From Terriglobia bacterium (GTDB taxonomy: Bacteria > Acidobacteriota > Terriglobia > JAIQFV01): DNA of 64,000 nt. The notes under the pieces were generated by a model. That model was given only the letters and a program-made list of their open reading frames with translations. It searched no databases and had not been told where the DNA came from. Of the stretch, positions 20,736 to 43,160 are shown one piece after another. The stretch lies in NCBI GenBank assembly GCA_020073085.1, contig JAIQFV010000001.1, forward strand, positions 496,001-560,000, written 5' to 3'. Numbering within the stretch: position 1 is the stretch's first letter; every line of letters starts with the position of its first letter. Made by a program: the position numbers and the translations under genes.

Positions 20736-20856
20736 GATGTCAAACTCCTCTCCCTTGTCACACAGACCGTCTTGTCTTATATCGTTTTGCGGATGGAAAT
20801 GTCAATTGGCAAGCACTCGAAGCCAGATTCTCATCGGGCGGGGGCAGAGTGAGCGC

Positions 20857-20891
20857 AGGACCTCCCTCCTCAATTCCAAGAGGGAGGTCCT
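20857..20891 (-). terminator. strong 12-bp hairpin after the NtrC-like gene
   Basis: AGGACCTCCCTC (20857-20868) and GAGGGAGGTCCT (20880-20891) form a perfect 12-bp stem with an 11-base loop, just past the stop of the minus-strand regulator gene. No T-run follows on the minus strand, so it may act as a factor-dependent terminator or 3' stabiliser. Confidence 0.45.
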
Positions 20892-20923
20892 CTGTGCGTG
20901 GGGGATATTTGAGTCGGATGACT

Positions 20924-22378
20924 CTAGTAAGCCTCAAGAAATTTGTCGAGATCGTACTGTTTGATCTTGCGGTAGAGCGTCTTCGGGGAAATGGCAAGCA
21001 GTTCTGCGGCCTTGCCACGATGCCAGTGGGTCTTTTGGAGAACACTTGCGATTTGCCGCTTCTCCATTTCGACGAGCGACACCGCGTCGCCGGCGTACCC
21101 TTCAGTCTCTCTCCCGGGGGCGGATATGTACTCCAGGATGTCCTCCGGCAAATCCTCGACGTCAATCAGCATGTGCGGGGAAATCAGCAGGACGCGCTCG
21201 ACCATGTTCCGGAGTTCCCGCACATTGCCGGGCCATGGATAACGCTTCAGGAGCTCCATGGCCGGATCTGAAAAGCGCCTCTGGTGCGTTCGATCAAACT
21301 CCTCGAGAAACTGGTGGAGAAGGAGAGGAACATCGTCCCGCCGCTCCCGGAGAGGAGGAATCTCAATGTTGATCGTATTCAACCGGTAAAATAAATCTTT
21401 TCGAAATTTCCCCTCTTTGACCGCCTGTTTCAAATCCTTGTTTGTCGCGGCCAGGATGCGGACATCCACAGTGATCTGTTTTGTCCCGCCGACACGGTAG
21501 AACGACCGTGTTTCTATGACGCGAAGAAGTTTGGTTTGGAGGACTGGTCCGATCTCTCCAATCTCGTCCAAGAACAGTGTTCCTCCCGTCGCCAGTTCGA
21601 ACAGACCCGGTTTCGAGCTGTCGGCTCCCGTGAAGGAGCCTTTTTCATACCCGAACATCTCACTCTCCAGCAAGGTTTCCGGGATCGCGGCGCAACTAAT
21701 ATCTGTAAACGGATTGTTACAGCGCAAAGATTCGGCGTGAATGGCGCGGGCAATGACTTCCTTTCCCACCCCACTGTCACCGGTGAGCAGGATCGTCGAA
21801 TTACTCTTGGCCACGCGAGTCACCAGCACCGCAATCTCCTTCATTTTTGCACTTCGAGTCAACGAAGGGATGATACATTGGGGACCCCGGGGTCTCCTGA
21901 TGGCGGGATTGTTTTCGATAACCAGTCGGCGCTTCTCGTAGGCTCGATTAATTGCATCCTGGAGGAGTGGGAGACGGAGAGGTTTGGTCAGGAAGTCCAC
22001 CGCGCCCATCCGGATGGCTTCCACAGCAGACTCCACGGCCGGCTGGCTCGAGACCAGGATCACCTCCGGGCCATTCTCCTGCGCTTTGATCTTGGAGAGC
22101 AATTGCAGCCCGGTCATCCGTGGGAGCATCAATTCGGCGACGAGAACGTCAAACTCTTCGCTCTGGATCAATTCCATCGCGGAGAGCCCGTTGTTCGCCA
22201 CAATGAAAACATAATCCTTCTGCGGATAGTGCTGCTGCAGGAGACGTATCGTCGTCAAATCGTTGTCGACTACAAGAACCCTCATCTTCTTTGGATGGGT
22301 GTCGCCGACCGCTGAATCCTTCACGGTGTCGGGGCCCCCCGCAGACATCGCATCTGTCTTATTTGACGAATCGCTCAT
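20924..22378 (-). CDS. NtrC-like sigma-54 activator with degenerate receiver
   Basis: 484 aa from the Met at 22378; the frame extends to 22486 and neither start has a good ribosome binding site. Order: receiver (MRVLVVDNDLTTIRLL... TKPLRL), AAA+ activator (GDSGVGKE Walker A, GSFTGA sigma-54 loop, FLDEIGEIG Walker B) and C-terminal Fis-type helix-turn-helix (RGKAAELLAISPKTLYRKIKQY). At the phospho-acceptor position the sequence reads VAELMLP instead of the usual SDxxMP, so Asp is replaced by Glu (codon 22133-22135). The VDND acidic pocket and the Lys of TKP are kept. No histidine kinase is adjacent. Activity may be constitutive or kinase-independent. Confidence 0.92.
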   Translation of the reverse strand: MSDSSNKTDAMSAGGPDTVKDSAVGDTHPKKMRVLVVDNDLTTIRLLQQHYPQKDYVFIVANNGLSAMELIQSEEFDVLVAELMLPRMTGLQLLSKIKAQENGPEVILVSSQPAVESAVEAIRMGAVDFLTKPLRLPLLQDAINRAYEKRRLVIENNPAIRRPRGPQCIIPSLTRSAKMKEIAVLVTRVAKSNSTILLTGDSGVGKEVIARAIHAESLRCNNPFTDISCAAIPETLLESEMFGYEKGSFTGADSSKPGLFELATGGTLFLDEIGEIGPVLQTKLLRVIETRSFYRVGGTKQITVDVRILAATNKDLKQAVKEGKFRKDLFYRLNTINIEIPPLRERRDDVPLLLHQFLEEFDRTHQRRFSDPAMELLKRYPWPGNVRELRNMVERVLLISPHMLIDVEDLPEDILEYISAPGRETEGYAGDAVSLVEMEKRQIASVLQKTHWHRGKAAELLAISPKTLYRKIKQYDLDKFLEAY

Positions 22379-22618
22379 AATGTTGTTCACTGGAGTAAAG
22401 TGTTCTAAAATGCGTTGGAGTGTGTCCCTCCTGATTGGCAGACTTTCCGAGGAGGCGACTCTAATTACCTTTTCGTCATCTTGCACCGAAATCTTTACTT
22501 AGATTCTTTACGAAATTGTCACAACCCAAGTCAAAAGTTCACAAATTGTCTCTTTTTGACCTCCCCGCGCCCCATGAGGTTGCTATTACTTCCTGTTCTC
22601 AAATCATGAGGAGTACCC

Positions 22619-24415
22619 ATGAATTGCAGAATTACCAAGCGTTGGCTGGGCCTTGTTCTCCTGTTCCTCAGCTTATGGTGGACATTCAGCTGCTCTCGAA
22701 AGCAGCCGGTTCAGGACGTACTGGAAAACTGGGGGCCTCTCTCCAAGGATGCCCTCGTGATGGAGGGAACGGCGGGACAATACGGTGGGACATTGGTCAC
22801 CGCCATCGGCCAGGAGCCTCGCTCCTTCAACCGCATTGTCTCCAGTGATACGGCCACTGCGGATATCGCTGATCGGATCTTTGCGGATTTGATCCATATT
22901 AATCGTGAAACACAACGCCCTGAGCCATCCTTGGCGAAATCCTGGGAATACTCTCCGGACAGGCGGAGCATGACCATGCACTTGAGGGAGGGAATCCTTT
23001 TTTCCGACGGACGCCCGTTTACAGCAGACGACGTGATATTCACCTTCCAGGTGATTTACGACCCCAAAGTCAACTCACCCCAGGCAGACCAGCTGAAAGT
23101 GAACGGACAACCCTTTGCCCTCAAGAGGATGGGGGACTATGAGATTGAATTCACCTTTGCCCAACCTGCCGCCGGGATCGAAAGGGTCTTCGATTCCATT
23201 TTCATTCTGCCAAAGCACAAACTCGAAACGGCCTACAACGCCGGGGGTTTTGCTTCGACCTGGACCGTGACCTCCCCCCCGGGCGAAATTGTGGGCTTGG
23301 GACCTTTCAGATTCAGCCGATATACACCAGGGCAGAGAGTGGAACTGGAACGAAATCCTCATTATTGGAAGGTTGACGCAGGAAACAGAAGGCTTCCCTA
23401 CTTATCCCGATTGATCCTGGTAATCATTCCGAATCGGGAAACACAGTTCCTGAACTTCAAGTCGGGTGATCTGGATATCCTCAATGACCTCCGTGCAGAA
23501 GATTATTCCGTTCTTGCACGCGGTTCGGGTTCATCGAAGGTCGTGGCGAAAGACCTCGGGCCGAGCCTGGGCAGTGAACTTCTCTGGTTCAACCAAAACC
23601 GTAACATAAGCTCCAAAACCCGCCGACCCCTTGTGAACCGGCCCAAATTGGAGTGGTTTACCAATACGCAGTTCCGGCAGGCCGTCTCTTATGCCATAAA
23701 CCGGAAAAGTCTCGTTGACCTGATATACCAGGGCCGTGCCACCGAGGCTTTCGGACCCCTGACCATCTCAAACAAGTTCTGGTACAACCCATCCATCAAG
23801 CAGTACCCCTACGACGTCGATCAAGCGAAGAAACTGCTCGCTGCGGCTGGATTCCAGTGGGCCACCGTCAAGGGTCAACTCCAGTTAAGGGACGGCAGCC
23901 AGCGGCCCGTACGATTTTCTTTAATCACGAACGCCGGAAACCGAAATCGCGAAAAAATCGGGGCCATGGTACAAAACGATTTGGAGAAGATTGGGATTCA
24001 AGTGGATTTCACCCCCCTCGAATTCAGTTCTTTGATTGCGCGGATTATGGAAACCTTTGATTATGATGCCTGCCTCTTAGGTCCAACGAATGTGGATACA
24101 GATCCCAGTGGTCAAATGAACCTGTGGTTATCGGGCGCACCCAACCATCAATGGTTTCCCAACCAAAAGAAACCGGCCACCCGTTGGGAGGAGCGCATCG
24201 ACGAGTTGATGCTCAGCCAATCGACCGCTTCAAGCATTGAACAGCGCAAAAAGGCCTTCGATGAAGTCCAATTGATCGTCAGCGAACAGCTTCCTTTCAT
24301 CTACTTAGTCTCCCGCAACGTTCTTGTGGCGGCAAAGAGCCGGGTCGGAAACTTTCGCCCGACTGTCCTGGACCATCATACCCTCTGGAATTGTGAGCAA
24401 CTCTATTTGAAGTAA
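22619..24415 (+). CDS. peptide/oligopeptide ABC transporter substrate-binding lipoprotein (family 5)
   Basis: 598-aa extracytoplasmic solute-binding protein of the DppA/OppA family. The N-terminus MNCRITKRWLGLVLLFLSLWW ending TFSC looks like a lipoprotein signal, although the lipobox is not ideal. Family features: YGGTLVTAIGQEPRSFNRI, LAKSWEYSPDRRSMTMHLREGI, FSDGRPFTADDVIFTF and FRQAVSYAINRK. GAGGAG precedes the ATG. No permease or ATPase gene follows; instead the kinase/sigma-54 regulator starts 18 bases downstream. Candidate permeases lie at 38777-40802. Coupling to a regulator suggests ligand sensing as well as uptake. Confidence 0.9.
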   Translation: MNCRITKRWLGLVLLFLSLWWTFSCSRKQPVQDVLENWGPLSKDALVMEGTAGQYGGTLVTAIGQEPRSFNRIVSSDTATADIADRIFADLIHINRETQRPEPSLAKSWEYSPDRRSMTMHLREGILFSDGRPFTADDVIFTFQVIYDPKVNSPQADQLKVNGQPFALKRMGDYEIEFTFAQPAAGIERVFDSIFILPKHKLETAYNAGGFASTWTVTSPPGEIVGLGPFRFSRYTPGQRVELERNPHYWKVDAGNRRLPYLSRLILVIIPNRETQFLNFKSGDLDILNDLRAEDYSVLARGSGSSKVVAKDLGPSLGSELLWFNQNRNISSKTRRPLVNRPKLEWFTNTQFRQAVSYAINRKSLVDLIYQGRATEAFGPLTISNKFWYNPSIKQYPYDVDQAKKLLAAAGFQWATVKGQLQLRDGSQRPVRFSLITNAGNRNREKIGAMVQNDLEKIGIQVDFTPLEFSSLIARIMETFDYDACLLGPTNVDTDPSGQMNLWLSGAPNHQWFPNQKKPATRWEERIDELMLSQSTASSIEQRKKAFDEVQLIVSEQLPFIYLVSRNVLVAAKSRVGNFRPTVLDHHTLWNCEQLYLK

Positions 24416-30201: not shown

Positions 30202-30226
30202 ACATATCAAAGGCAATTAGCTTTGG

Positions 30227-30247
30227 AGAGTTGAGAAGATCAACTCT
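30227..30247 (+). repeat. perfect 8-bp inverted repeat in the leader
   Basis: AGAGTTGA (30227-30234) and TCAACTCT (30240-30247) around a 5-base spacer. It would form an RNA hairpin just after the predicted start of transcription, or serve as a protein-binding site. Confidence 0.55.
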
Positions 30248-30302
30248 GGAGACGTAGAAAAGGTACCTTCGCTTCTCCGCTCATAGTACTCCTCAGTGAC
30301 GA

Positions 30303-30330
30303 GGGGAGGGGGAGACGGGGACGAGGGGGG
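30303..30330 (+). other. G-quadruplex motif in the peptide leader
   Basis: Four G-runs of 4, 5, 4 and 6 residues (30303-30306, 30308-30312, 30317-30320, 30325-30330) are separated by loops of 1, 4 and 4 bases. This satisfies the canonical intramolecular quadruplex pattern on the coding strand, so both DNA and mRNA could fold. Confidence 0.65.
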
Positions 30331-30337
30331 CCCGAAG

Positions 30338-30356
30338 CGGGAAACCCAAGTTCCCG
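30338..30356 (+). repeat. hairpin following the G-quadruplex
   Basis: CGGGAA (30338-30343) pairs with TTCCCG (30351-30356) across a 7-base loop. A competing CCCG/CGGG pairing (30331-30341) overlaps it, so alternative folds are possible. Confidence 0.45.
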
Positions 30357-30462
30357 TCAACCACAAGATCTCAGTTTGACCCCAAAAGAAACGGACAGGG
30401 TTTTGGAGTTTGATAAGCGCTTGGTGCAATTGAAGTTGCTGATTTTTGAGGAGGAAACAAAA

Positions 30463-30537
30463 ATGGAAGAGAATCTGGTTCTTGAGGTTGAGGAGCTTGA
30501 GGAAATAGTCGCTCCCAACATCCTCTGGGGTGTATAA
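30463..30537 (+). CDS. 24-aa peptide, candidate precursor or signal peptide
   Basis: A short ORF with one of the strongest ribosome binding sites in the window (GAGGAGGAA, 30448-30456, spacing fits the ATG at 30463). The product has an acidic Glu/Leu-rich first part (MEENLVLEVEELEE) and a hydrophobic C-terminal tail after Ala-Pro, ending NILWGV. This leader-plus-short-core layout fits secreted or post-translationally modified peptides. It is followed by a nested hairpin and, 418 bases on, by a PqqD-like/M50/HlyD gene of the kind that matures and exports peptides. The tail resembles the NIIWG and NLLWG units of the subtilisin at 34181. Short ORFs can arise by chance, but ribosome binding site, composition and context support it. 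Confidence 0.62.
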   Translation: MEENLVLEVEELEEIVAPNILWGV

Positions 30538-30563
30538 CTTTAAGATTGTCTAAACTCCGAAAT

Positions 30564-30607
30564 GGGGCGGCTCACCAATCCATTGGTTTCATAACAAGAG
30601 TCGCCCC
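30564..30607 (+). terminator. nested hairpin after the peptide gene (terminator or attenuator)
   Basis: Outer stem GGGGCGGCTC (30564-30573) with GAGTCGCCCC (30598-30607), 10 pairs including one G-U. Inside lies a second perfect stem, ACCAAT/ATTGGT (30574-30579, 30582-30587). A mixed TCTATTAATTT tract follows rather than a clean T-run, so readthrough into the export gene is plausible. Confidence 0.5.
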
Positions 30608-30654
30608 TCTATTAATTTCCCGAAACAAACACGATTCTGGCTGACACAACTGAA

Positions 30655-30858
30655 ATGAAGAAGCCCACAAAGAAAGCAAAGATTCTAACTCTTTTGACCT
30701 TGATGCTTGAGATAACGCTTATCTGCGTGGTCGGTCCCCGGTATTTAACACTACTTCTGTTTTTATCTCTCCTAAGCAGCCTTGGAATTCTTGCTGCAAA
30801 ATCCGAATTGTCTCTTTTGTCCCACTCCAGGTCGGGCAGGCGCAATTCAATTTATTGA
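30655..30858 (+). CDS. possible small membrane protein
   Basis: 67-aa ORF between the peptide and the M50 gene. Basic N-terminus (MKKPTKKAKI), then two hydrophobic stretches (LTLLTLMLEITLICVV and YLTLLLFLSLLSSLGILAA) and a basic tail, as in a small two-helix membrane protein. There is no clear ribosome binding site and no recognised family. If real, it may be an accessory or immunity-type protein of the peptide system; that role is only inferred from position. Confidence 0.35.
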   Translation: MKKPTKKAKILTLLTLMLEITLICVVGPRYLTLLLFLSLLSSLGILAAKSELSLLSHSRSGRRNSIY

Positions 30859-30955
30859 AGAGCAACATGGGGCCCCTAGCTCGCGAATCTCATTAGACAA
30901 AGCGTGATATCGCGCAAGCCCCCAACGAAGAGACATAAGTCTTTGCAAGACGAAA

Positions 30956-33346
30956 ATGGAATCTTCTAATCATCCAAAATTGCGGCGCGATTTGATCATT
31001 ACCGAACAGGGTGAGGGGGATCAGACCGCGTACATTATAAAGGACCCCCAATCGAGAAAATTCTTTCGATTGAGGCAACACGAATTCCTGATCGCGAGTC
31101 AATTTGAGGGGAAGCTGACCATCGCCCAGCTTGCGACTCATTTCAAGGAAGAGCTCCATCTCAATGTCAATGCAGAAGGGCTTTCAGACTTCGTGGAGAA
31201 GCTGGGCGCGAAGGGCCTGCTTGAGACATCTGGACAGGAAACAACTCAAACTGGGCAACCCGTTCTGCCGCCTCTTGCCAACTGCTCGCCCCACCCTTCG
31301 TTTTCGCGTGAAAATAAGCGGCGTTCCCGATTGGACAGATTGCTGTATTGGAAGATTGCCTATTTCGATCCCGATGCATTCTTCAACCGGCTATTGCCGC
31401 ACTTCAGGTTTCTCTTCACGTCGGCCTTCTTCCTGCTCGTTGTCGCCACGATCCTGGCTGCAGCGTGTGTGACTGCATACAATTGGGATGAAATCACGGA
31501 TCAGATTCAAACCCTCTATTCAACCGCCTCCGTCCTCTGGGCACTCATTATCATGATGCCAATTCTTATCCTTCATGAGATGGCCCATGGCATGACCTGC
31601 AAATACTTCGGGGGAGAGGTACACGAGATGGGATTTCTCCTCTTGTACTTCCAGCCTGCATGCTTCTGCAATGTCAGCGACAGCTATGTTTTCAAGAAAA
31701 GATCTCAGCGCCTCTGGGTGATGGCCGCCGGCGTATTCATCCAGACTTTCCTCTGGGCTGTCCTCACACTTCTGTGGCGAATATTGGCTCCCGAGAGCTT
31801 GATCGCCCGATTCATCTTTATCAATGTTGCGGTCACAGGGTTCGTGACGATTCTGCAATTCAATCCGCTGATTAAGCTTGACGGGTACTACATTCTGTCC
31901 GAGCTTTTTTCAATCCCGAATCTGCGGGCGAAGTCCTTTGCCTGGCTTCGGGCGAAGGCAAGATCATTCATGACAGGAACTTCGGGTGCAATAAAAGGGC
32001 TTTCGCGGAGGGATCGGATGATTTATTGGCTCTATGGAATGATCGCTTTCATCTATTCATTCGGTTTAATCAAATACGTTATTCTCAGGGTTGAGCAGTT
32101 TTTTGTTGAGCAATATCAAGGAACAGGTTTTATACTGTTTTGGGGTGTCGCATTGTTCGTAGTAAGCGACCCGTTGATCCAGGCGATTGGACATGTCCAT
32201 TCCAAGAAAATGACCGAGAAGAAACAGAGCGCGTCGAAGCACAAGAATCTTTTTGTCACCGGTTTTTTTTGCCTGTGCGGGTGTCTCGTGCTTACCCTGG
32301 GCCGATGGGAGCTCAAGGTGGCCAGCGAGTGTACCCTGATCCCCTATGAACGGGCCGAGGTAAGAGCAGAGGTTCCCGGAACCATTGAGCGGATCTATTT
32401 CGACGAAGGGCAGGCCGTACACAAGGGTGACGTCATCGCCCGTCTTGCTGATTACAAGTACAGCGGGGAGAAGGCCAAGACTTCGGCTGACATTTCGGAA
32501 GCCCAGGCGCGGCTTCAACTGATGGTGGTGGGTCCTTCGAAGGAAGAGATCGCTTTGGGGCAGTCTCAAGTCGATCGCGCAGAGGCCTCCATCAGAAAGG
32601 CTGAAGCCCAAGCTCCAATTGCCCGCGAACGGCTGGATTATGCGAACAAGAATTTTGAGCGGGTAAAACGCCTTTTTGACGAAAAGCTCCTCGCTTCGAT
32701 GTCATTCGATGAAGCCGAGCGTGATCTCAACATTCGAAAGCGAGAATTCGACGAGGTTCAGCACGACGTCGAGGAGAAACGAAGACTCTACCAGGAGGCC
32801 CGCAAGGCCCTGGCCAAGGTGATGGCGGGGACACGCGCGGAAGAAATCGAGGCGAAGCGGGCTGAGATCGAAGGACTGGTCTCCCAGCGGACCCTGCTTG
32901 ATACGGAGAGTACCTATACCGCAATCCGAAGTCCCATTGACGGCATCATTACAACGCATTTTCTCAAGCAGCAGGAAAAGGCCTACCTGGAACAGGGTGA
33001 CGTGATCTGCCAGGTAGCAAACACTCGGAAGATACTTACCGAAATCCCCGTTCCCGAAAAAGAGGTGGGGGATGTGAAGATCGGGTTCTACGTGCGACTA
33101 AAGGCTAACGCATATCCCAGCAAAGAGTTTGATGGGAAGGTCACGCAGATCTCTGATATCGCCGATCCGCAAGATAAGAATGTGCGAATCCTCATAGTCA
33201 GAAGCGAGATTGACAACCCGAATTTTCTTTTAAAACCTGAAATGACGGGTTACGCCAAGATATATTGTGGAAAACGAACCATTGGAGAACTTGTCACCCG
33301 GAGGTTGGTAAGATTTATTCGCACGGAATTCTGGTCTTGGTTCTGA
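30956..33346 (+). CDS. PqqD-like / M50 metalloprotease / HlyD-like peptide maturation-export protein
   Basis: 796 aa. Residues 1-90 look like a PqqD-type winged helix (AYIIKDPQSRKFFRLRQHEF... LTIAQLATHF... FVEKLGAKGLLE), the fold used as RiPP recognition element. Residues about 140-450 are a multi-helix M50 intramembrane protease with zinc motif HEMAH (207-211) and NPLIKLDGYY (from 303). After a last helix near 425, residues 465-780 form a HlyD-type periplasmic adaptor: lipoyl-like halves (VRAEVPGTIERIYFDEGQAVHKGDVIA) around a long coiled coil (about 510-640). Such fusions, like YydH-type peptide zinc metalloproteases, act on small secreted peptides. No ABC ATPase is next to it. The preceding 24-aa peptide is the natural candidate substrate. 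Confidence 0.9.
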   Translation: MESSNHPKLRRDLIITEQGEGDQTAYIIKDPQSRKFFRLRQHEFLIASQFEGKLTIAQLATHFKEELHLNVNAEGLSDFVEKLGAKGLLETSGQETTQTGQPVLPPLANCSPHPSFSRENKRRSRLDRLLYWKIAYFDPDAFFNRLLPHFRFLFTSAFFLLVVATILAAACVTAYNWDEITDQIQTLYSTASVLWALIIMMPILILHEMAHGMTCKYFGGEVHEMGFLLLYFQPACFCNVSDSYVFKKRSQRLWVMAAGVFIQTFLWAVLTLLWRILAPESLIARFIFINVAVTGFVTILQFNPLIKLDGYYILSELFSIPNLRAKSFAWLRAKARSFMTGTSGAIKGLSRRDRMIYWLYGMIAFIYSFGLIKYVILRVEQFFVEQYQGTGFILFWGVALFVVSDPLIQAIGHVHSKKMTEKKQSASKHKNLFVTGFFCLCGCLVLTLGRWELKVASECTLIPYERAEVRAEVPGTIERIYFDEGQAVHKGDVIARLADYKYSGEKAKTSADISEAQARLQLMVVGPSKEEIALGQSQVDRAEASIRKAEAQAPIARERLDYANKNFERVKRLFDEKLLASMSFDEAERDLNIRKREFDEVQHDVEEKRRLYQEARKALAKVMAGTRAEEIEAKRAEIEGLVSQRTLLDTESTYTAIRSPIDGIITTHFLKQQEKAYLEQGDVICQVANTRKILTEIPVPEKEVGDVKIGFYVRLKANAYPSKEFDGKVTQISDIADPQDKNVRILIVRSEIDNPNFLLKPEMTGYAKIYCGKRTIGELVTRRLVRFIRTEFWSWF

Positions 33347-33938: not shown

Positions 33939-34148
33939 ATGGCTCCAAACAAATCAGGAAGCCGCGATCAAAAGGGCGGAGACCGCATTCGAAAGAATCA
34001 GCCGTTGCGGTCATTCGGATCGATTGGAGATCTTGAATTCAATTCAATGACCTTTCGTGGTGCGCGTCTGGTTTGGAATTCTCCCGGCCCAGCGGAGTTC
34101 CAGCCGATCTTCTCTTTAGGCGAATCAAGCCAGTTCTTCGTCGAATGA
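33939..34148 (+). CDS. 69-aa protein of unknown function upstream of the subtilisin
   Basis: Short ORF with an excellent ribosome binding site (TAAGGAGGAAA ahead of the ATG). The N-terminal third is basic and Gly/Ser/Asn-rich (MAPNKSGSRDQKGGDRIRKN); the rest contains Phe/Trp and Pro-Gly (ARLVWNSPGPAEFQPIF). No signal peptide or known domain. It starts 75 bases after the predicted sigma-54 transcription start and ends 32 bases before the subtilisin start, so it is the first gene of that operon. It could be a substrate, inhibitor or second secreted peptide; nothing in the sequence decides this. Confidence 0.55.
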   Translation: MAPNKSGSRDQKGGDRIRKNQPLRSFGSIGDLEFNSMTFRGARLVWNSPGPAEFQPIFSLGESSQFFVE

Positions 34149-34180: not shown

Positions 34181-36076
34181 ATGCGATACCAACATCTTAT
34201 TCTCAGGCTCCTCATGGTCGCAGTGTTATCGCTGCCAATGCTTTGCTTTGGCGGAGGTTTGGACAAACTGGACGGATCCCTGCGCGAGAGGGTAAGGCGC
34301 GGAGAGCGCGGCACTATCCCGATCATCATCCGGACCGCCCTCGTGCCGGCCGATTCAAACCGTTCAAAATCGCGGCTTAACCAGGCCCTCTACGATAGGA
34401 TTGAAGGACATCGAGGACGGGTCAAAAAGGAATTCTGGGCGATCGATGGCCTCGCAGCTGAGGCAGAGGTCACGGAACTGGAGGGACTTGCCCAGACACC
34501 CGGCATCGAAGGAATCTCGGAAGATCATGTGGTGAGGCCATCGAATGACATTACTGTCAAGTCCGTCGGCGCGGACATTGCCCGGATGAGTTATGGGGTC
34601 GAAGGTGATGGTGTTGGGATCGCTGTGCTGGATTCCGGCGTATCTCCCCATGGCAAAGACCTGGATGGCTCTCGACGGATCGGCAGCCGGATTCTCGCTC
34701 AATGGAGCACCGTTGGATTGGATGGCAACGCCATGGCGAACGCCGGGTCGATGGACGACAGTTATGGCCATGGGACCCATGTCGCTGGGATCATTGCTGG
34801 CAATGGAGATGAATCCGGAGGAGCGCTTTCGGGGATCGCACCGAAGGCGAAAATCATCAGCGTCAAGGTCTTGGGGGATGACGGATCGGGTTATGTAAGT
34901 GATGTCATCGAAGGGATCCAATGGGTAATTCAAAACAAACTTAAATACAACATTCGAATCATCAACCTTTCACTGGGGCATCCGGTTTCGGAATCCTACA
35001 AAACGGATCCTCTCGCCCAAGCCTGTGAGGCCGCTGTCAGAGCCGGCATTGTCGTTGTCGTCGCGGCGGGCAACTACGGTAAGGATGAGTTTGGGAAGAT
35101 CGTGTATGGCGGAATTACCAGCCCCGGTAACGATCCCCAGGTGATAACTGTCGGTGCGGCGAAGTCCCAAGGGACGCCCGCCCGTTCCGACGACGCTATC
35201 GCGGATTATAGTTCGCGAGGACCCACAGCTCTCGACCTCCTTTCCAAGCCGGACTTGGTTGCCACCGGAAACCGGGTGAAGTCGATCGCAGATCCGAGCA
35301 CCAATAAGAACGATCTCTTCGATCTCTACCCCCAGAACCGTGTGGACCCGTCTTATTACACTCAGGCTGGAGGGACCGAGATCAAAAAGGTCCACTACTT
35401 CATTTTGAGCGGAACGTCCATGGCAACCGCGGTGGTATCAGGGACAGTTGCGCTGATGCTCCAAGCCCAGCCTCATCTCACTCCCAATTTGGTTAAGGCA
35501 ATCCTCATGGTGACGGCGCAGGACCTGCGACTGCCCTTCGTGGTTCAAGGGGCAGGCTACTTGAACACTCTTGGGGCGGTGATGCTTGCACGAAACGTCT
35601 CGGCAACCAGGGCCCCCCTGGGTTCTTCGCAGCTTCTTGATAATGGAAGAGCCTTGAGCACACAGAACACAATCCAGGGAGAAACTGTCAATTGGGGAGG
35701 CAATATCATTTGGGGAGAAAACCTGCTGTGGGGTGGAATCATCGAGAGCAATTTAGCGATATGGAGCACTCAGGTGGCCTGGGGCAGCGGCAATGTCATT
35801 TGGAGCAATGGCAATGTCTTATGGAGCAGTGGTAACATGCTCTGGGACAGTGGAAATGTGCTGTGGAGCAATGGAAATGTGCTGTGGAGTAACAGTGTCA
35901 TCTGGGGAGGAAACTTTATAACTGGCGGAAGCTATATCGGAGCAAGTGCCGCGCAATCACTCAATCCCTTGCTAGTATCCAGGTCGTTGTGGAGTTCTGA
36001 CTTTTGTGGAGGGATGTCGGTGACAACCAGTGGAAACGTGATATGGAGTTCTTCAGCCTTAATATCAGGGGAGTAG
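34181..36076 (+). CDS. secreted subtilisin-like serine protease (S8) with Trp-rich C-terminal repeats
   Basis: 631 aa from the Met at 34181 (GGAG upstream), which begins a signal peptide (MRYQHLILRLLMVAVLSLPMLCFG); the longer frame to 34073 overlaps the 69-aa ORF. An I9-like propeptide (about 30-115) precedes the catalytic domain: Asp151 (IAVLDSGV), His197 (GHGTHVAG), the oxyanion region VVVAAGNYG and Ser413 (SGTSMATAVVSG). After residue 500 comes a Trp/Gly/Asn/Ser repeat tail (NIIWGENLLWGG... then five GNVLWSN-type units) that may form a beta-solenoid or adhesive region. Repeats of NxxW type occur at the ends of other bacterial S8 proteases. It lies under the sigma-54 promoter. Confidence 0.92.
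   Translation: MRYQHLILRLLMVAVLSLPMLCFGGGLDKLDGSLRERVRRGERGTIPIIIRTALVPADSNRSKSRLNQALYDRIEGHRGRVKKEFWAIDGLAAEAEVTELEGLAQTPGIEGISEDHVVRPSNDITVKSVGADIARMSYGVEGDGVGIAVLDSGVSPHGKDLDGSRRIGSRILAQWSTVGLDGNAMANAGSMDDSYGHGTHVAGIIAGNGDESGGALSGIAPKAKIISVKVLGDDGSGYVSDVIEGIQWVIQNKLKYNIRIINLSLGHPVSESYKTDPLAQACEAAVRAGIVVVVAAGNYGKDEFGKIVYGGITSPGNDPQVITVGAAKSQGTPARSDDAIADYSSRGPTALDLLSKPDLVATGNRVKSIADPSTNKNDLFDLYPQNRVDPSYYTQAGGTEIKKVHYFILSGTSMATAVVSGTVALMLQAQPHLTPNLVKAILMVTAQDLRLPFVVQGAGYLNTLGAVMLARNVSATRAPLGSSQLLDNGRALSTQNTIQGETVNWGGNIIWGENLLWGGIIESNLAIWSTQVAWGSGNVIWSNGNVLWSSGNMLWDSGNVLWSNGNVLWSNSVIWGGNFITGGSYIGASAAQSLNPLLVSRSLWSSDFCGGMSVTTSGNVIWSSSALISGE
35789..35893 (+). repeat. five tandem 21-bp repeats encoding GN(V/M)(I/L)W(S/D)(N/S)
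   Basis: Units begin at 35789, 35810, 35831, 35852 and 35873, each seven codons. They are related at protein level with several synonymous changes, so the array is old or under protein-level selection. Looser WG units flank it on both sides. Confidence 0.85.
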
Positions 36077-36163: not shown

Positions 36164-38641
36164 GTGTCTAAAAGACCTCTCCAAAACATATCTCTTCTTG
36201 ATCTCTACATCTTCGTCACGTCAGTTACAGGGGCATACTTTCTCGTAAATGCGGCCATTCACGCCCGCTATATCACGTATTGGAAAGAACTGCTGATACT
36301 CGGAACTCTTGGGGCTGTCTCGGCTTCAGTTAAGGTTATCCTTCCCTCGTCAAAAGGTACGATCTCGATTGCATATGCTTTTGTATTCACGAGCATGCTT
36401 CTGTTAGGAACACAAGAAACTATCTTGATCGCTGCAATCTGTGCCTTCACTGGGTATGCTGTACAGGTCAAGGAGTTTCGGACGCACCAGCTTGCCTTTA
36501 ATGTTGGCAATCTAGTTGTTTGTGTGATGGTCGCATGCTATGCAATTCGAATTCTCAACGCCGATGTGTTTTGGTTCCGAAACAGCTTTCAGATACTCCC
36601 AATTATTACTGCAACTTCAATCTATTTTGTTCTCAATTCCTTCATGGTTGGCCTTGTCATTTCCCTTAGTGAATCGAAAGGATTTCGGCGCATTTGGCTG
36701 GAGAACTTCTACTGGACCGCTCCCAGTTTTTATGTGGGGGCATCCATCGCTTGGGCGCTGACGGTCTTTTATCAGCGGTATGGAATTGCCGTTATCTTCC
36801 TTGCTCTTCCCCCTCTGTACCTCACATATTTCACTCACAAGATGTACATGGCCCGTCTGGAAGAGAGTCATTTGCACCTGCGTGACATGGCCGATCTTCA
36901 TTTGCGCACCATTGAAACTCTGGCCCTGGCCATTGATGCAAAAGACGAAACGACGCATCTGCATTTGCAACGGGTCCGCATCTTTGCGACGGGGCTTGGC
37001 AGGGCATTGAACCTGAGTGATGACGAACTCAATTCTATCAAGGCAGGGGCACTGCTTCATGATGTGGGCAAGCTGGCGGTGCCGGAATACATCCTCAACA
37101 AACCGGGGAGACTGACGCCGGAAGAATTTAACCGCATGAAGGTTCACCCTCTGGTCGGAGCAGAGATTCTCTCCGCAGTCAATTTCCCTTATCCTGTTGT
37201 GCCGGTGGTCCTGTGTCATCATGAAAGATACGATGGCACCGGATACCCAAACGGACTGGCAGGAGAAGAGATCCCTATTACAGCCCGCATCCTCTCTGTG
37301 GTGGATTGCTTCGATGCGCTTGCTTCAGATCGCCCCTACCGCCGGGCCTTGCCTCCCGAAGAGGCGATGAAATATATCCATGAACAGAAGGGAAAGGCAT
37401 TCGATCCAAAGATCGTCGAACTCTTTGAGAGCCTTTATCCCACCCTTGAGCAAGAAGCCCGGGCTGCGGCGCTGGAAGCCCACCGGATCTCTGCCAATCT
37501 CCCCTCCTTTTCGCTCCAAACGAATCCCAAGGGGGCGCTGGCGCACCCGGCGACCGGATACAGCGAGACCACCCAGATCCATCATCTTCGAAACATCGCC
37601 GCTGCCAACCAAGAGGTTTATTCGCTGTATGAACTCATCCAAACGGTGGGCACCAGTCTCAATCTTGTTGAGACGTTGAACCTCATCGCCTCAAAAATCA
37701 GAAAGGTGATTCCCTGCGATTGTTGCGTTGCCTATTTGCGCCAGGACGAGACGCTTGTGCCCCAATACATAGACGGGAAGGAGAAAGAAACCTTCTCTGA
37801 CCTTGCCATCCCTCTGGGAGAAGGAATTACCGGCTGGGTGGCTGAGAACAAACGGCCTCTGATCAATTCCAATCCGCTGGTGGAATTCGGGTACCTGGGC
37901 AATGCGGCGCGGTTCACTCTGATGCGGTCCGCCCTATCCGTGCCCCTTAAGGTGAATGAAGAGGTTCTCAGCGTCATCACTCTTTATGATGAAACCCCCA
38001 ACAAGTTCGTGGGAGACAACCTTCGGGTGCTGGAGCTCATTGCTTCCAAGACCGCGCTCGCCATCAAGAATGCGATTACCTTTGAGCAAACCTATGAAAA
38101 CTCCCTGACGGATGATTTGACCGGCCTTCCCAATTCGCGGCATATGTTCCTCAAGCTGGATGAGGAAATCGCGAGAGCCCGCCGAAACGGGACCGCCCTC
38201 ACCGTTCTGGCTATGGACCTGAACTCCTTCAAGGAAGTGAATGACACTTTTGGACACTCCGTCGGCGACAAGGTGCTTCGCCAGATTGGGAAGTATTTGA
38301 GAAGTACACTGCGCGACTACGACTTTGTGGCCCGTCTCGGGGGAGACGAATTTATGGCTGCCCTGCCGGGACTTCTCGGAGAGGATATCAACAAGAAAAT
38401 TCAACAGGTGCAAGCCGCCATCGAAGGGATTCAGTCCGAAAAACGGTTCGGCCGGTTTATTAAACTCTCGCTCAGCATCGGATCCGCCACTTTCCCCCAG
38501 GACGGAAACGACGCCGACACCTTGCTGTCTGTCGCCGACTCGCGCATGTACGCCAACAAATTCACGCAAAAGAAACGTCGCCAGCAGATTGAATTCGCCA
38601 TGGATACTTCCGAAGAAGAGAGATCGTTTCCAATTCAATGA
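36164..38641 (+). CDS. membrane-bound HD-GYP / GAF / GGDEF protein
   Basis: 825 aa from a GTG start with AAGGAAGAAG upstream. The first 230 residues are about eight hydrophobic helices, a likely sensor domain. HD-GYP phosphodiesterase follows, about 250-420 (HD at 299-300 in LLHDVGKLAVP, HHERYDGTGYPNGL). Then GAF, about 490-650 (LGEGITGWVAENKRPL), and a diguanylate cyclase, about 655-815, with an intact GGDEF (726-730). It can in principle both make and break c-di-GMP, with GAF and membrane inputs. The membrane part is more AT-rich than the rest. It closes the plus-strand island before a strong terminator. Confidence 0.93.
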   Translation: MSKRPLQNISLLDLYIFVTSVTGAYFLVNAAIHARYITYWKELLILGTLGAVSASVKVILPSSKGTISIAYAFVFTSMLLLGTQETILIAAICAFTGYAVQVKEFRTHQLAFNVGNLVVCVMVACYAIRILNADVFWFRNSFQILPIITATSIYFVLNSFMVGLVISLSESKGFRRIWLENFYWTAPSFYVGASIAWALTVFYQRYGIAVIFLALPPLYLTYFTHKMYMARLEESHLHLRDMADLHLRTIETLALAIDAKDETTHLHLQRVRIFATGLGRALNLSDDELNSIKAGALLHDVGKLAVPEYILNKPGRLTPEEFNRMKVHPLVGAEILSAVNFPYPVVPVVLCHHERYDGTGYPNGLAGEEIPITARILSVVDCFDALASDRPYRRALPPEEAMKYIHEQKGKAFDPKIVELFESLYPTLEQEARAAALEAHRISANLPSFSLQTNPKGALAHPATGYSETTQIHHLRNIAAANQEVYSLYELIQTVGTSLNLVETLNLIASKIRKVIPCDCCVAYLRQDETLVPQYIDGKEKETFSDLAIPLGEGITGWVAENKRPLINSNPLVEFGYLGNAARFTLMRSALSVPLKVNEEVLSVITLYDETPNKFVGDNLRVLELIASKTALAIKNAITFEQTYENSLTDDLTGLPNSRHMFLKLDEEIARARRNGTALTVLAMDLNSFKEVNDTFGHSVGDKVLRQIGKYLRSTLRDYDFVARLGGDEFMAALPGLLGEDINKKIQQVQAAIEGIQSEKRFGRFIKLSLSIGSATFPQDGNDADTLLSVADSRMYANKFTQKKRRQQIEFAMDTSEEERSFPIQ

Positions 38642-38776: not shown

Positions 38777-39748
38777 ATGCTCCGTCGACTCGCTCCCCGG
38801 ATCCTTGCCTCTATCCCCCTCCTGTTCGGAGTCACCCTTCTTTCATTTCTGTTGATGCACACGGCCCAGGGCGATTTTCTTTCTTCGATGCAGTTGAATC
38901 CCCAGATTGATCCCGCCACAATTGAGACCGCACGTACAAAATTCGGGTTGAATCTCCCCTGGTACGTACAATACTTCAAATGGATTGCGCAAATCTCCCG
39001 GGGAAATTTCGGGTACTCGTTTGCCTATCAGCAGCCGGTCACCGAGATCATCGGATCGTATGTCGCCAACACGCTTTTACTTTCCGTCACTGCGCTTTTC
39101 CTCGCGTTGATTGCGGCATTGCCGTTGGGGATTCTCTGTGCTGTTAAAAGAAACTCGTGGATAGATCGGGCCGTCCATCTGGTCTCCTCGGTCGGTGTGT
39201 CGCTGCCCACGATCCTCCTCGCCCTCTTCGCTGTTCTGTTCGCAGCAAAGACGGGTTGGTTCCCCATCGGAGGCCGCGAGCGGCTGGATGCCGCAGAACT
39301 GGGTTGGTTCGCCCATGGCCGGGATCTGCTTCATCACCTTGTTCTGCCGGCCATGGTCCTGGCGGTCAATCCGGCCATTGTCTATTTTCGACAGACTCGC
39401 AGCAACCTCTCCGCCGTATTGGACGATCCGTTCATCATGACAGCACGTGCCAAAGGACTGGGGCCTCTTCACATTCTATTGCGTCATGCCATGCGCAATG
39501 CACTGAACCCCCTCATATCGCTTTTTGGGTTTTCAGTCGCAAACCTGCTAAATGGGGCCTTCCTTGTGGAGATCATTATGTCCTGGCCCGGCTTGGGTCG
39601 ACTGACCTACGAGGCCCTTCTCAGTCGCGATTTATACCTTGTGATGGGTTCTCTTACATTGGCTTCACTGATGTTGATTGGGGGAAATTTGTTGGCTGAC
39701 TTTTTGATGGCGTGGAATGATCCAAGGATAAAAGTCAGCTCTATGTAG
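38777..39748 (+). CDS. oligopeptide-type ABC transporter permease (DppB-like)
   Basis: Inner-membrane permease, 323 aa from the Met at 38777 (MLRRLAPRILASIPLLFGVT), where homology begins; the frame extends to 38732. Six hydrophobic helices, an N-terminal TMD0-type segment and the family's cytoplasmic EAA-like loop (TARAKGLGPLHILLRHAMRNALNPLIS). The next gene is the DppC-like partner. With the lipoprotein at 22619 it could form one importer, although they are 14 kb apart and no ATPase gene is in the window. Confidence 0.9.
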   Translation: MLRRLAPRILASIPLLFGVTLLSFLLMHTAQGDFLSSMQLNPQIDPATIETARTKFGLNLPWYVQYFKWIAQISRGNFGYSFAYQQPVTEIIGSYVANTLLLSVTALFLALIAALPLGILCAVKRNSWIDRAVHLVSSVGVSLPTILLALFAVLFAAKTGWFPIGGRERLDAAELGWFAHGRDLLHHLVLPAMVLAVNPAIVYFRQTRSNLSAVLDDPFIMTARAKGLGPLHILLRHAMRNALNPLISLFGFSVANLLNGAFLVEIIMSWPGLGRLTYEALLSRDLYLVMGSLTLASLMLIGGNLLADFLMAWNDPRIKVSSM

Positions 39749-39821
39749 TATTGTTCCACGGTGAGGTGACCGAAGTGACGGCAGGGCATTCATTCAAGAC
39801 CCTTGGAACGAGGCACTTGTT

Positions 39822-40802
39822 ATGGGAGCGGAACCTCCTGATATGAAGAGAACCCTCCTTTGGAATCAAAAAATGCTCTGGGGATCCGCCCTTCTCCTTC
39901 TCTTCATCCTGGTCGCCTTGGGTGCCGACTTTGTGGCGCCCTATCCCCCTTCCAATCAGTATCGGACGTCATTCAACTCGGCGCCCTTCTCGGACAGCGC
40001 GCGGGCCGACGGTGCTCCTCCGTCAATCCGTTTGTTTGTCGCCGCGGATTCATACCGATGGCTTGGATTTCTTCCATCGCGGCGGCACCTCTTCGGCTCT
40101 CAGGAGGGAAAGCCGATTTTCCTTCTTGGAAGCGACGAATTCGGACGTGATATCTTCTCACGCCTGGTCTTTGGGGCACGGATCTCGCTTCTCGTCGGTT
40201 TCCTCGGGGTTGCCATCTCTTTCTTCGTGGGGATGTTGCTGGGGGGAATCTCGGGGTTCGTGGGAGGTTGGATTGACCAGATGACCATGCGCGGTTCGGA
40301 GCTGTTCATGGCGCTGCCCGGCCTTTATCTGCTCCTGACCCTGCGATCCGTATTTCCCAAACAACTTTCCCCAACAGCGAGCTTTTTTCTAATCATCAGC
40401 ATTCTCTCCCTGGTGAACTGGGGTTCGATTGCCCGCGTCATCCGCGGAATGGTTCTTTCGTTACGAGAAAACGATTTTGTCGAGGCAGCCCGGGCAGTGG
40501 GTGCTTCAAGAGCACGGGTCCTTACCCGGCATATCCTCCCCAACACTGCTCCTTTTCTGCTGACTCAAGCGTTGTTAAGCATTCCATATTACATTTTGGG
40601 CGAAATTGCCCTATCGTTCCTGGGATTGGGAATTCAAGAACCCAATCCAAGCTGGGGCAACATGCTGGCCTCAGCCCTGGATATCACCGCCCTCACGGAA
40701 CGACCGTGGATTCTTGCGCCCGGTGCTGCCATCTTTTTGGTCGTGTTGGCCTTCAACCTATTTGGGGAAGGGTTGAACGACGCATTCAAGCCCAGAAGGT
40801 AG
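39822..40802 (+). CDS. oligopeptide-type ABC transporter permease (DppC-like)
   Basis: Second permease, 326 aa; an internal Met at 39843 (MKRTLLWNQKMLWGS) is an equally good start. It has an N-terminal helix, then a periplasmic insert, LLGSDEFGRDIFSRLVFGARISLLVG (the DppC/OppC hallmark), and the EAA loop (EAARAVGASRARVLTRHILPN). C-terminal FGEGLNDAFKPRR is typical. 73 bases separate it from the DppB-like gene. The neighbouring amino-sugar genes raise the possibility that muropeptides are the cargo. Confidence 0.92.
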   Translation: MGAEPPDMKRTLLWNQKMLWGSALLLLFILVALGADFVAPYPPSNQYRTSFNSAPFSDSARADGAPPSIRLFVAADSYRWLGFLPSRRHLFGSQEGKPIFLLGSDEFGRDIFSRLVFGARISLLVGFLGVAISFFVGMLLGGISGFVGGWIDQMTMRGSELFMALPGLYLLLTLRSVFPKQLSPTASFFLIISILSLVNWGSIARVIRGMVLSLRENDFVEAARAVGASRARVLTRHILPNTAPFLLTQALLSIPYYILGEIALSFLGLGIQEPNPSWGNMLASALDITALTERPWILAPGAAIFLVVLAFNLFGEGLNDAFKPRR

Positions 40803-41047
40803 AGGCCTTCCGCCATCGACGGCATCCTTGATCATTTCTCCTTCCGGCCCGCCTGACAGGGTTTTAAGGCTGGACCCTTCAGGGAGGCGGTCTCCTTGTC
40901 GTTACTCGATTGTCCGGCCTCCAACCTCTTCACGGTTATTTTGTGCTACAATTCTCCCACTCCTGGGGTTTGCTGAATCCACGCAACTCAGATGCGCCTG
41001 GCCTTTCCGCCACGGCAGACTCGCCTGACTGAGGAGCAACCGCCTTA

Positions 41048-42088
41048 ATGTCTTTGATGCTTCAGGAAATCGATGAGCAACCCGGCGTCCTCGAGCGCAC
41101 TCTGAATGCAGAATGGAAACATGCCGAGCAGTTGAGCCGAGTTCTCGCGCGGCGGAGTCCTTCCTTGATTGTGCTGGTGGCTCGAGGAACCTCCGATAAC
41201 GCCGCCCAATTTGGCCGGTACCTCCTGGAAATTACGACTGGGATCCCCGTGTCACTGGCGGCGCCTTCGGTCCACACGTTGTATCGGGCCAGACTACGCC
41301 TTTCCAATACGCTTGCGATTGGAATCTCTCAGTCCGGAGAATCTACCGACATTAACCTTACGATTCAGCACGCCAAAGAGTGCGGCGCCATGACCGTCGG
41401 GATCACCAATGATTCCCGGTCCACCCTGGCCTCCCTTGTGGACGAGATTTTTGTCACACGGGCTGGCCAGGAAAGAAGTGTGGCCGCGACTAAGACTTAT
41501 ACCGCCCAGCTCATGGTGCTTTACCTTTTGGCGGCTTGTCTTCGAGGATTTCCCGATGGGTGGAGCAAATCCCTGACGCGCATCCCCGGATGGACCGCAC
41601 GATCCCTCTTATTAAAAGCGAGCATCCGCGAGATTGTGGAGCGATATCGTTTCATGCGTCAGTGTGCTGTGGTCGGCCGCGGCCTGAATTATGCCAATGC
41701 CTTTGAGCTGGCGATTAAGCTGATGGAAACCTGCTATGTTATGGCGGAGCGTTTTTCATCAGCAGATTTCCTCCATGGCCCGATCGCCATGGTGGAAGGA
41801 GGGTTCCCCGTCATTCTCTTTGCTGCGCCCGGAAAAGCTTTTCGCGACATGCTCAGGCTCACGCGTCGACTGATGCAATTAAAGGCCGAGACCGTTGTGA
41901 TTTCCAGCGAGGCCCAGATCCTTAAGTTCGCTACGCGCGCATTGAAAATGCGAGACCGGATCGATGATCTCTATTCTCCAATCCCTTACATTGTTCCCGG
42001 CCAAATCTTCGCAGCTTTACTTGCGGAAACGAAAGGGCTGAGTCCGGACACCCCTCGATCGCTTAGCAAGATCACCCGAACAGTCTGA
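41048..42088 (+). CDS. SIS-domain protein, probable glucosamine-6-phosphate deaminase/isomerase (NagB-II or GlmS isomerase-like)
   Basis: 346 aa resembling the two-SIS isomerase half of GlmS without the glutamine amidotransferase domain. The N-terminus has the typical MLQEIDEQPGVLERTL. First SIS: VARGTSDNAAQFGRYLLE and SQSGESTDINLTIQHAK; the C-terminal SIS contains GRGLNYANAFELAIKLMETCYVMAE, SADFLHGPIAMVE. Such free-standing proteins deaminate GlcN-6-P to fructose-6-phosphate in catabolic clusters. Its place next to a sugar kinase, MurQ and NagA supports that role. Confidence 0.85.
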   Translation: MSLMLQEIDEQPGVLERTLNAEWKHAEQLSRVLARRSPSLIVLVARGTSDNAAQFGRYLLEITTGIPVSLAAPSVHTLYRARLRLSNTLAIGISQSGESTDINLTIQHAKECGAMTVGITNDSRSTLASLVDEIFVTRAGQERSVAATKTYTAQLMVLYLLAACLRGFPDGWSKSLTRIPGWTARSLLLKASIREIVERYRFMRQCAVVGRGLNYANAFELAIKLMETCYVMAERFSSADFLHGPIAMVEGGFPVILFAAPGKAFRDMLRLTRRLMQLKAETVVISSEAQILKFATRALKMRDRIDDLYSPIPYIVPGQIFAALLAETKGLSPDTPRSLSKITRTV

Positions 42089-42224
42089 TAAAGTTCAGGT
42101 GGGGCCTCAACCCGTGAAACAACTTGTTCGAAAACCAAGCCGATTGTATCGCAACGGTCTCCCATGAGATCGGAGGACTGCAAATCCCCGAACCCGGAAG
42201 CCACCAATCGGCAGAAGTGATCCT

Positions 42225-43160
42225 ATGAAGATACTCATCGGAATTGACGGAGGCGGGACCAAGACAGAAGCGGCAGCCGCCACCGAGGGAGGGGAAATTA
42301 TCGGCACGTTTGAAGCCGGGCCGTCGAACGTCTTCAAGGTTGACTTCGCCGCCTCTGCTGCGGCGCTCGAAAACGTGATTGAAGGTTCCTTAGCGAAAGC
42401 CCATGCCAGCCGGGCCGAGGTCGTCTCCATCTGTGCCGGTTTGGCTGGGGTCGATCGCCCTACCATCCAGAAGCAGATCACCGATATCCTGTACCGGATT
42501 GTCCCCATCGACAGGATCTCGGTGGTGGGCGACGCGACGACGGCACTGATGGGGGCCACGGAGGGGGAACCGGGAATGGTGGTCATTTCCGGCACCGGTT
42601 CCATCGCTTATGGCATGAACGCTCAGCGTCAACGCGCCCGTGCCGGTGGTTGGGGGCATATCGTCGATGACTTCGGAAGTGGCTATGACATCGTCCGGAA
42701 TGCCTTCAACGAAGTCTTTCGGGCTCACGATGGGCTGGAACCTCCAACCCGTCTGACGCAAGCCTTCCTCGACACCCTTCATGCCGAAAATGTGGACAAT
42801 CTGTTGATTGCGATCCACCGGGATTACACGACCGCCGGCAAAATCGCTTCCTTGTTCCCTCTTGTCCAGTCCGTCGCTGATGGCGGTGACATCATTGCCA
42901 ACAAGCTTCTGGAACGGGCAGGGCATGATCTTTCTTCCACCGCAGAGGCCGTCGTGCGCAAACTGGACTTATACAACCAGGATTTCATTTGCGGAACGAC
43001 GGGCGGAGTGTTTCAATCCAGCCGGCAGGTTCGAGATTCCTTCGCGTGGTATGTTCACCGGTTCGCCCCTCGCGCCAATGTCTGTTTTCCCAGGAAGTCA
43101 GCCGTGGAGGGAGCCCTCATGCTCGCGAGGGCAAATTTTCAAGGCAGAAGGATGTTCTAG
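42225..43160 (+). CDS. BadF/BadG-type ATPase, probable N-acetylglucosamine/N-acetylmuramic acid kinase
   Basis: 311-aa actin-fold sugar kinase. Phosphate-binding boxes: LIGIDGGGTKTEAA at the N-terminus, VVGDATTAL, VISGTGSIAYG and GGWGHIVDDFGSGYDI. The BadF ATPase group includes GlcNAc and MurNAc kinases (MurK). Between a SIS deaminase and MurQ/NagA, phosphorylation of imported GlcNAc and MurNAc is the likely job. No phosphotransferase permease is present, so the sugars would enter unphosphorylated. Confidence 0.87.
   Translation: MKILIGIDGGGTKTEAAAATEGGEIIGTFEAGPSNVFKVDFAASAAALENVIEGSLAKAHASRAEVVSICAGLAGVDRPTIQKQITDILYRIVPIDRISVVGDATTALMGATEGEPGMVVISGTGSIAYGMNAQRQRARAGGWGHIVDDFGSGYDIVRNAFNEVFRAHDGLEPPTRLTQAFLDTLHAENVDNLLIAIHRDYTTAGKIASLFPLVQSVADGGDIIANKLLERAGHDLSSTAEAVVRKLDLYNQDFICGTTGGVFQSSRQVRDSFAWYVHRFAPRANVCFPRKSAVEGALMLARANFQGRRMF

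Follow-up and report, generated by a model that had tools for sequence, protein, structure and literature searches.

The window considered here, a 64,000-nucleotide (nt) stretch of a Terriglobia genome of 5.79 Mb (contig C1:496001–560000), carries a gene for a peptide of 24 amino acids (aa) at positions 30463–30537 and, downstream of it, a gene for a large protein. This protein joins a recognition element of the kind found in systems for ribosomally synthesised and post-translationally modified peptides (RiPPs), the RiPP recognition element (RRE), to an M50 protease and a HlyD-type adaptor. The two genes and their relatives most likely represent a system that exports very short hydrophobic peptides, guided by a leader and coupled to a protease. 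The peptides are probably secreted signals linked to cyclic di-GMP (c-di-GMP); the signalling role, taken by itself, is put forward tentatively. Leader binding, cleavage site, maturation, secretion, export and signalling are inferred from the genes as follows. In the precursor, the first 18 residues would be the leader and the remaining six, NILWGV, a short hydrophobic core. The leader would be bound by the N-terminal RRE of the neighbouring protein at the cytoplasmic face, and the precursor would be cut by the M50 domain, either close to the Ala-Pro boundary or within the membrane. The HlyD part would convey the freed core into the periplasm and then out by way of a TolC-type outer-membrane channel whose gene lies elsewhere. 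The acidobacterial product would thus be a very short exported peptide containing tryptophan, and relatives also encode the same [VI][IL]W peptide leaderless in genes of 8–10 codons, sometimes fused to a leader. As a secreted signal, the peptide would be linked to the HD-GYP/GGDEF and kinase/sigma-54 proteins encoded next to it, with c-di-GMP riboswitches as putative control elements in five relatives.

The open reading frame (ORF) of the peptide runs from ATG to TAA and encodes MEENLVLEVEELEEIVAPNILWGV; it is preceded by a strong Shine–Dalgarno site, GAGGAGGAA (30448–30456), with a GGAGG-to-ATG spacing of 8 nt. The family of the window genome (G000) includes two other genomes, G001 and G002, and both have a counterpart at the same position, MEENLVLEVEELEEKIAPNVIWVS and MEEILVLEVEELEDKTAPNVIWTGN, with GAGGAGGAA ahead of each. 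Across the 75 nt of the ORF, identity to the window is 80% (G001) and 69% (G002); in the 75 nt from 30518 onward it falls to 49% in both. Although there are few codons per gene, the synonymous share of the changed codons is 4 of 10 between the window and G001, 7 of 15 between the window and G002 and 10 of 15 between G001 and G002. The C-terminal residues of the three peptides are V, S and N. The pattern E-[hydrophobic]-E-E-L-E has a single match in each of the three genomes, always the 24-aa ORF; the reversed control pattern gives 3, 1 and 0 matches. Sequence comparison thereby confirms that the ORF is a real conserved gene, beyond chance. A preliminary description of this DNA had pointed to the very short ORF, its strong ribosome binding site and its acidic, leader-like half, and had named their absence from related loci as a ground for refutation. 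That check was made and the gene withstood it: the ORF and the site are kept in both relatives, and the leader pattern is conserved and unique in each genome. The intergenic region 30218–30367, upstream of the peptide gene, is about 90% identical to that of G001, above most intergenic sequence, and has a stable fold with several possible hairpins; it is possibly an unrecognised regulatory RNA.

The fusion protein is 87% (G001) and 60% (G002) identical to its counterparts. In an AlphaFold2 model of residues 1–104 (mean predicted local distance difference test score, pLDDT, 76), the elements follow the order β-β-β-α-α-α of an RRE. The best Foldseek matches of this model are the lasso-peptide RREs 5v1u, 5v1v and 6jx3 (E ~2e-3, probability 1.00), each of which was solved with a leader peptide. 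A profile of 74 N-terminal sequences matches TbiB1 (E 4.5e-5), TfuB1 (0.015) and, weakly, PqqD (0.068). The N-terminal domain of the cluster protein, as modelled, has an RRE fold. H207, E208, H211, P304, D309 and G310 are invariant across 69 aligned homologues, with the HExxH and (N/D)P...LDG motifs intact; since H207-E208-x-x-H211 and D309 are kept in 69 of 69, the M50 part is probably an active protease. Residues 450–775 have the fold of the EmrA, MacA and MexA adaptors (Z ~16–19; EmrA 4tko, Z 18.8; MexA 1vf7, Z 16.7, root-mean-square deviation 3.8 for the adaptor part). The RRE model, the zinc motifs and the adaptor matches agree with the earlier proposal of a PqqD-like, M50 and HlyD partner in one chain.

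The pairing of leader and exporter extends far beyond this family. Counts for the wider family rest on 79 distinct loci, mostly from metagenome assemblies, which are the best of 551 exporter relatives found in one scan of 84,980 species genomes; the record titles name Acidobacteriota, Verrucomicrobia, Planctomycetes, Rokubacteria, Gemmatimonadetes, Zixibacteria, Nitrospirae and others. In 48 of the 79 loci, no more than 2 kb from the exporter gene, there are 76 small ORFs with a Shine–Dalgarno site and the motif [IV]E-x-LE-x-[RK]-[IVT]AP, 68 of them on the exporter strand; the remaining 764 kb contain 2, and shuffled sequence contains none. Among 65 distinct leaders, Leu(−7) and Glu(−6) are invariant, and R/K at −4 and AP at −2/−1 are nearly so, the pattern itself being part of the selection. 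The cores behind the leaders are 5–183 aa long and diverse, including LLGYEGQPGNQGG, GNPGNNNPPLNNTNNPGNEGTGG, Ser/Lys/His/Gly repeats, TRAAIAMG and SRYGAD; the core APDGGETVLPLP is found in unlinked loci of related genomes. Small precursors with a conserved leader and a variable core, as in RRE-dependent (RiPP-like) systems, are therefore present. Against Pfam and NCBIfam, the precursors have no family of their own, and their matches are weak or composition-driven (collagen-like, HxsA4).

Some cores are near-identical between different phyla. The sequence of one of them, GNPGN(N/K)NPPLNNTNNPGNEGTGG, recurs with little change in L065 (4667–4927), L069 (436–594), L098 (179–364) and L115 (9187–9339), from records titled Acidobacteria, Rokubacteria and Gemmataceae, which suggests transfer between phyla. 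Tandem leader peptides with the core APDGG-ETVLPLP were seen in L143, L149, L153 and L154, with no exporter gene within the sequence stretches examined. A protein of about 330 aa that belongs to no Pfam family follows the exporter in L043, L044, L046, L077, L081, L082, L090, L100 and L107; the peptides at these loci are mostly rich in Gly, Ser, Lys and His, and two match HxsA4 (His-Xaa-Ser) weakly.

Acidobacteriota have W-type cores, short peptides with [VI][ILV]W: NILWGV, NVIWVS, VIVWT, GVLWTIGQP, IVLWGWH and MIVWY; the set also includes core forms such as APNVIWVS, NPVIVWT and TPGVLWT. In other acidobacterial families, stand-alone genes of 8–10 codons encode MASAILWL, MASGILWL, MKETYGVIWV, MNETYGVIWV, MQKFGAILWL and MFSAKAILWL. 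W-type mini-ORFs number 23 in 44.5 kb near exporters, all on the exporter strand, versus 1 in 210 kb elsewhere. Copies of MKETYGVIWV and MASAILWL vary at synonymous sites (the first Val of GVIWV, for example, is GTA, GTC or GTG), the pattern to be expected if the peptides are translated and under selection. At two loci the W peptide is fused to a leader, once before it and once after it (MKENYGVIWTEIIDIEELEAKIAPSGSAAVTED and ...IEELENKVAPSAQWEVNGRTAKKEHYSVIWI), which ties both peptide types to one pathway. A phylum-wide search for M[KN]ExY[GS]VIW yielded one new genome among 396. Genes of the MASAILWL type were absent from all 399 genomes of the window's own class, so this variant belongs to other Acidobacteriota. 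The element TCTCGAATAGCTCTCTCA(C/T)CTTG lies ahead of the 8–10-codon genes, between exporter and mini-ORFs, in L076, L079, L089, L108 and L111; Rfam, at a relaxed threshold, gave no match for it in L076, L079 and L089.

The mini-ORFs might instead be regulatory leader peptides, acting as upstream ORFs or through ribosome arrest on the gene that follows, with no secretion. The 8–10-aa ORFs do end near a Trp codon and, in acidobacterial families other than the window's, they and a leader-type ORF precede the HD-GYP gene by 80–800 nt. However, L076 has as many as five ORFs in tandem, of two types; a longer ORF carries the same W motif behind a leader; in other phyla the leader family accompanies exporters with no HD-GYP gene following; and the window peptide is upstream of the exporter. 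Such a regulatory role is very unlikely.

The product could also be a RiPP, its core chemically modified by an enzyme whose gene lies in another part of the genome. Precursor delivery to modifying enzymes is the normal role of an RRE (PMC7470986), a related M50 protein occurs in daptide clusters (PMC12338566) and Trp is a common modification target. This explanation is improbable: no radical SAM, YcaO, LanM, decarboxylase or methyltransferase gene was detected in the main cluster or among the ten neighbours scanned (20.9–46.6 kb), as the preliminary description had stated for radical SAM, LanM and YcaO enzymes, and no recurrent enzyme gene able to act on W-type peptides was found across the 79 loci. 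The RRE fold and the precursor are shared with RRE-dependent systems; a modifying enzyme was not found in the cluster or the neighbours scanned.

M50 proteases mature daptides, epipeptides and pearlins, as well as pheromones in Gram-positive bacteria. The closest curated family is the daptide intramembrane metalloprotease (NCBIfam NF041824), with which the N-terminal and M50 domains align over residues 20–400 (E 1e-58); however, the score of 199 bits is below the curated cut-off of 300, and the HlyD part is fused on. The leader of the 24-aa peptide also aligns weakly with that of daptide MpaA3 (E 0.058), whereas daptide precursors end in Thr, which none of the three peptides does, and the Pfam families of the oxidative decarboxylase, aminotransferase and methyltransferase are missing from the window neighbourhood. 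The epipeptide protease YydH/LiaK (EpeP) likewise serves a small exported peptide and gives a weak profile match (E 1e-12); the window, in contrast to the YydFG/EpeX system, has neither an adjacent radical SAM epimerase nor a long precursor, and its protease is fused to an RRE and HlyD. Eep-processed pheromones (SHP/Rgg and the enterococcal sex pheromones) are likewise short and hydrophobic, serve as signals and depend on a site-2 protease for maturation (PMC10202637). The window system has instead a Gram-negative-type adaptor, an acidic leader with an RRE and c-di-GMP partners; no Rgg, PrgX or RRNPP receptor gene stands beside the window peptide, whose neighbours are the kinase–sigma-54 and HD-GYP genes. 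The lasso-peptide B1/E RREs (TbiB1, TfuB1) and PqqD share the fold and detectable sequence similarity, but the window RRE is fused to a protease and an export adaptor and is no discrete guide of a modifying enzyme. As in type I secretion, a HlyD-like adaptor is present; an export ATPase of the ATP-binding cassette (ABC) type was not found beside it.

Kamneva et al. (2015) described HlyD/M50 proteins near secondary SecA genes, inferring secretion and naming neither a substrate nor a PqqD-like domain (PMC4452313). Those loci resemble the present ones in their M50-like and HlyD parts, the missing ABC transporter, the many phyla and the predicted secretion role. They differ in the secondary SecA_DEAD gene: secondary SecA was considered as the energy source and rejected, as no SecA relative is encoded by the ORFs of the 79 loci and the window region, and the window genome has one SecA_DEAD match in total. 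Neither the leader motif nor the M50-HlyD-RRE fusion appeared in the literature searched (supplements and subscription journals lay outside the search). M50 and HlyD go unmentioned in the main texts of RRE-Finder and of the RRE survey of 2025, where most of the survey's 13 motifs are not given in full. The W-module and the precursor family were not found in Pfam, NCBIfam or the literature searched. Since the system shares parts with each known system but fails a defining feature of each, it is rated a variant; there is a real chance that the W-module deserves a class of its own.

Both sides of the window cluster carry signalling genes; the order is kinase-AAA-TPR-GAF-sigma-54 regulator, peptide, 67-aa membrane ORF, exporter, 69-aa ORF, subtilase and HD-GYP/GGDEF (Table 1). 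Other acidobacterial families have exporter, peptides and HD-GYP, then the sigma-54 regulator where the contig reaches. In five loci, c-di-GMP-I riboswitches lie between the exporter gene and the peptide ORFs, in tandem in four, and nowhere else within those loci. A signal is the likeliest role because of these c-di-GMP and sigma-54 partners. The main rival, an unlikely one, is an antimicrobial or self-toxic, bacteriocin-like peptide, with the 67-aa two-helix protein providing immunity and the signalling genes merely regulating. It would fit the conserved small membrane ORF that separates the peptide gene from the exporter gene in each of the three genomes, the several tandem peptide copies in relatives and the maturation of an antimicrobial epipeptide by M50 proteases (PMC10885120). 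However, the 67-aa ORF was not found outside the window's family, the very short W core is well conserved, unlike toxins, which tend to diversify, and both conserved partners are signal-turnover and regulatory proteins. A defence role was set aside, as PADLOC gave just generic subtilase, kinase and coiled-coil matches.

Several points weigh against an RRE-guided export system for peptide signals. By the criteria used, 31 of the 79 loci have no leader ORF, and the leaderless 8–10-aa peptides have no element that an RRE would bind. The leader and W patterns were fixed post hoc, from examples already viewed, so the near/far contrast is a linkage check and no blind discovery test. No ABC transporter or other export ATPase lies beside the exporter gene; only SBP_bac_5 and OppB/C-type subunits of a binding-protein-dependent permease are nearby. 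An Rfam scan of the window at 22–42 kb, at a relaxed threshold, gave no riboswitch, c-di-GMP riboswitches included. The evidence for the system comprises conservation of the ORF, linkage across the family, the RRE and adaptor folds, the intact protease site, synteny and the riboswitch matches.

A broader proposal, more speculative than the signalling role alone, is that Acidobacteriota use secreted Trp peptides of about 5–10 residues, some from 8-codon genes, as signals in a c-di-GMP-coupled circuit, with an exporter from a pan-phylum RRE-M50-HlyD family that has dozens of unrelated cores behind one LExRIAP-type leader. If true, the 8-codon W genes would be among the shortest conserved protein genes known and would bear on the minimum size of a protein-coding gene. 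The system would also provide a substrate class for M50/HlyD proteins of so far obscure role and a searchable leader motif for peptides below gene-caller size, and it would point to peptide signalling in a dominant soil phylum.

Table 1. Features of the peptide locus in the window.
Feature	Position	Strand	Basis
Ser/Thr kinase-AAA-TPR-GAF-sigma-54 activator regulator, 1827 aa	24434..29917	+	Pfam; same architecture beside W-type exporters in other families
Shine–Dalgarno site GAGGAGGAA of the peptide gene	30448..30456	+	Read directly; kept in G001 and G002
24-aa putative precursor: leader MEENLVLEVEELEEIVAP and core NILWGV	30463..30537	+	Synonymous codon changes in G001/G002; leader pattern unique per genome; family enrichment beside exporter genes
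Two-helix membrane ORF of 67 aa, possibly an accessory or immunity protein; weak Shine–Dalgarno site	30655..30858	+	Homologous ORFs in G001 and G002
RRE-M50-HlyD fusion, 796 aa; proposed leader receptor, maturation protease and export adaptor	30956..33346	+	Pfam/NCBIfam profiles, invariant sites, AlphaFold2 model, structural matches
RRE/PqqD-like domain, residues ~8–90	30977..31225	+	AlphaFold2 mean pLDDT 76; Foldseek; profile match to TbiB1
HEMAH, HExxH zinc site of the M50 domain (H207, E208, H211; D309 in NPLIKLDG)	31574..31588	+	Invariant in 69 homologues
HlyD/EmrA-like periplasmic adaptor, residues ~450–775	32303..33280	+	Pfam HlyD_D23 1.5e-21; structural matches
69-aa ORF (MAPNKSG...FRGARLVWNSPG...), strong Shine–Dalgarno site, possible further secreted product	33939..34148	+	Conserved in G001
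S8 subtilase, secreted; N[VI][IL]W repeats at the C-terminus (e.g. GNVIWSNGNVLWSS)	34181..36076	+	Pfam Peptidase_S8; repeats in all three genomes
HD-GYP/GGDEF/GAF protein, N-terminal membrane part (weak MASE9 match), c-di-GMP turnover	36164..38641	+	Pfam; same partner in most W-type loci

The preliminary description had reported the peptide and the fusion gene; the short gene, leader-like half, fusion partner and missing modification enzyme all stand. It left out the breadth of the family, the [VI][IL]W subfamily and the 8–10-codon genes and, at the locus itself, the 67-aa and 69-aa ORFs, the N[VI][IL]W subtilase and the c-di-GMP and sigma-54 signalling genes on both sides. Counterparts of the 67-aa ORF occupy the same place in G001 (L057 9699–9902) and G002 (L064 6257–6469), with an alignment score of 84 versus a maximum of 51 in 500 shuffles. 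The 69-aa ORF shows 14 synonymous and 10 non-synonymous codon changes between the window and G001; it was not found in G002.

The repeat unit of the subtilase, GN[VI][IL]WSx, has 7 residues and resembles the peptide core; no equally close paralogue of this protein was found in the window genome. The exporter might serve mainly larger proteins such as this subtilase, with the 24-aa peptide an inhibitor or pseudo-substrate that copies the repeat. The repeats GNVIWSN and GNVLWSS do match the cores NILWGV and NVIWVS, and each of the three genomes carries the gene. Nevertheless, the subtilase starts with a hydrophobic, signal-peptide-like stretch and has no leader, and no repeat-bearing subtilase occurs at the other W-type loci within the sequence stretches examined, which makes this explanation highly improbable.

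The flanking Opp permease (SBP_bac_5, OppB and OppC) might re-import the peptide, but genes for NamZ, a BadF-type kinase and two SIS proteins point to the recycling of muropeptides, and the permease was not seen beside other W-type loci. The flanking genes (18404–24412 and 38777–46636) encode a NamZ exo-muramidase, a beta-lactamase-like protein, an SBP_bac_5 binding protein, OppB/OppC permeases, an SIS protein, a BadF-type kinase, an SSF symporter and a GKRP/MurQ-like SIS protein. The cluster looks to be embedded in a muropeptide-recycling region.

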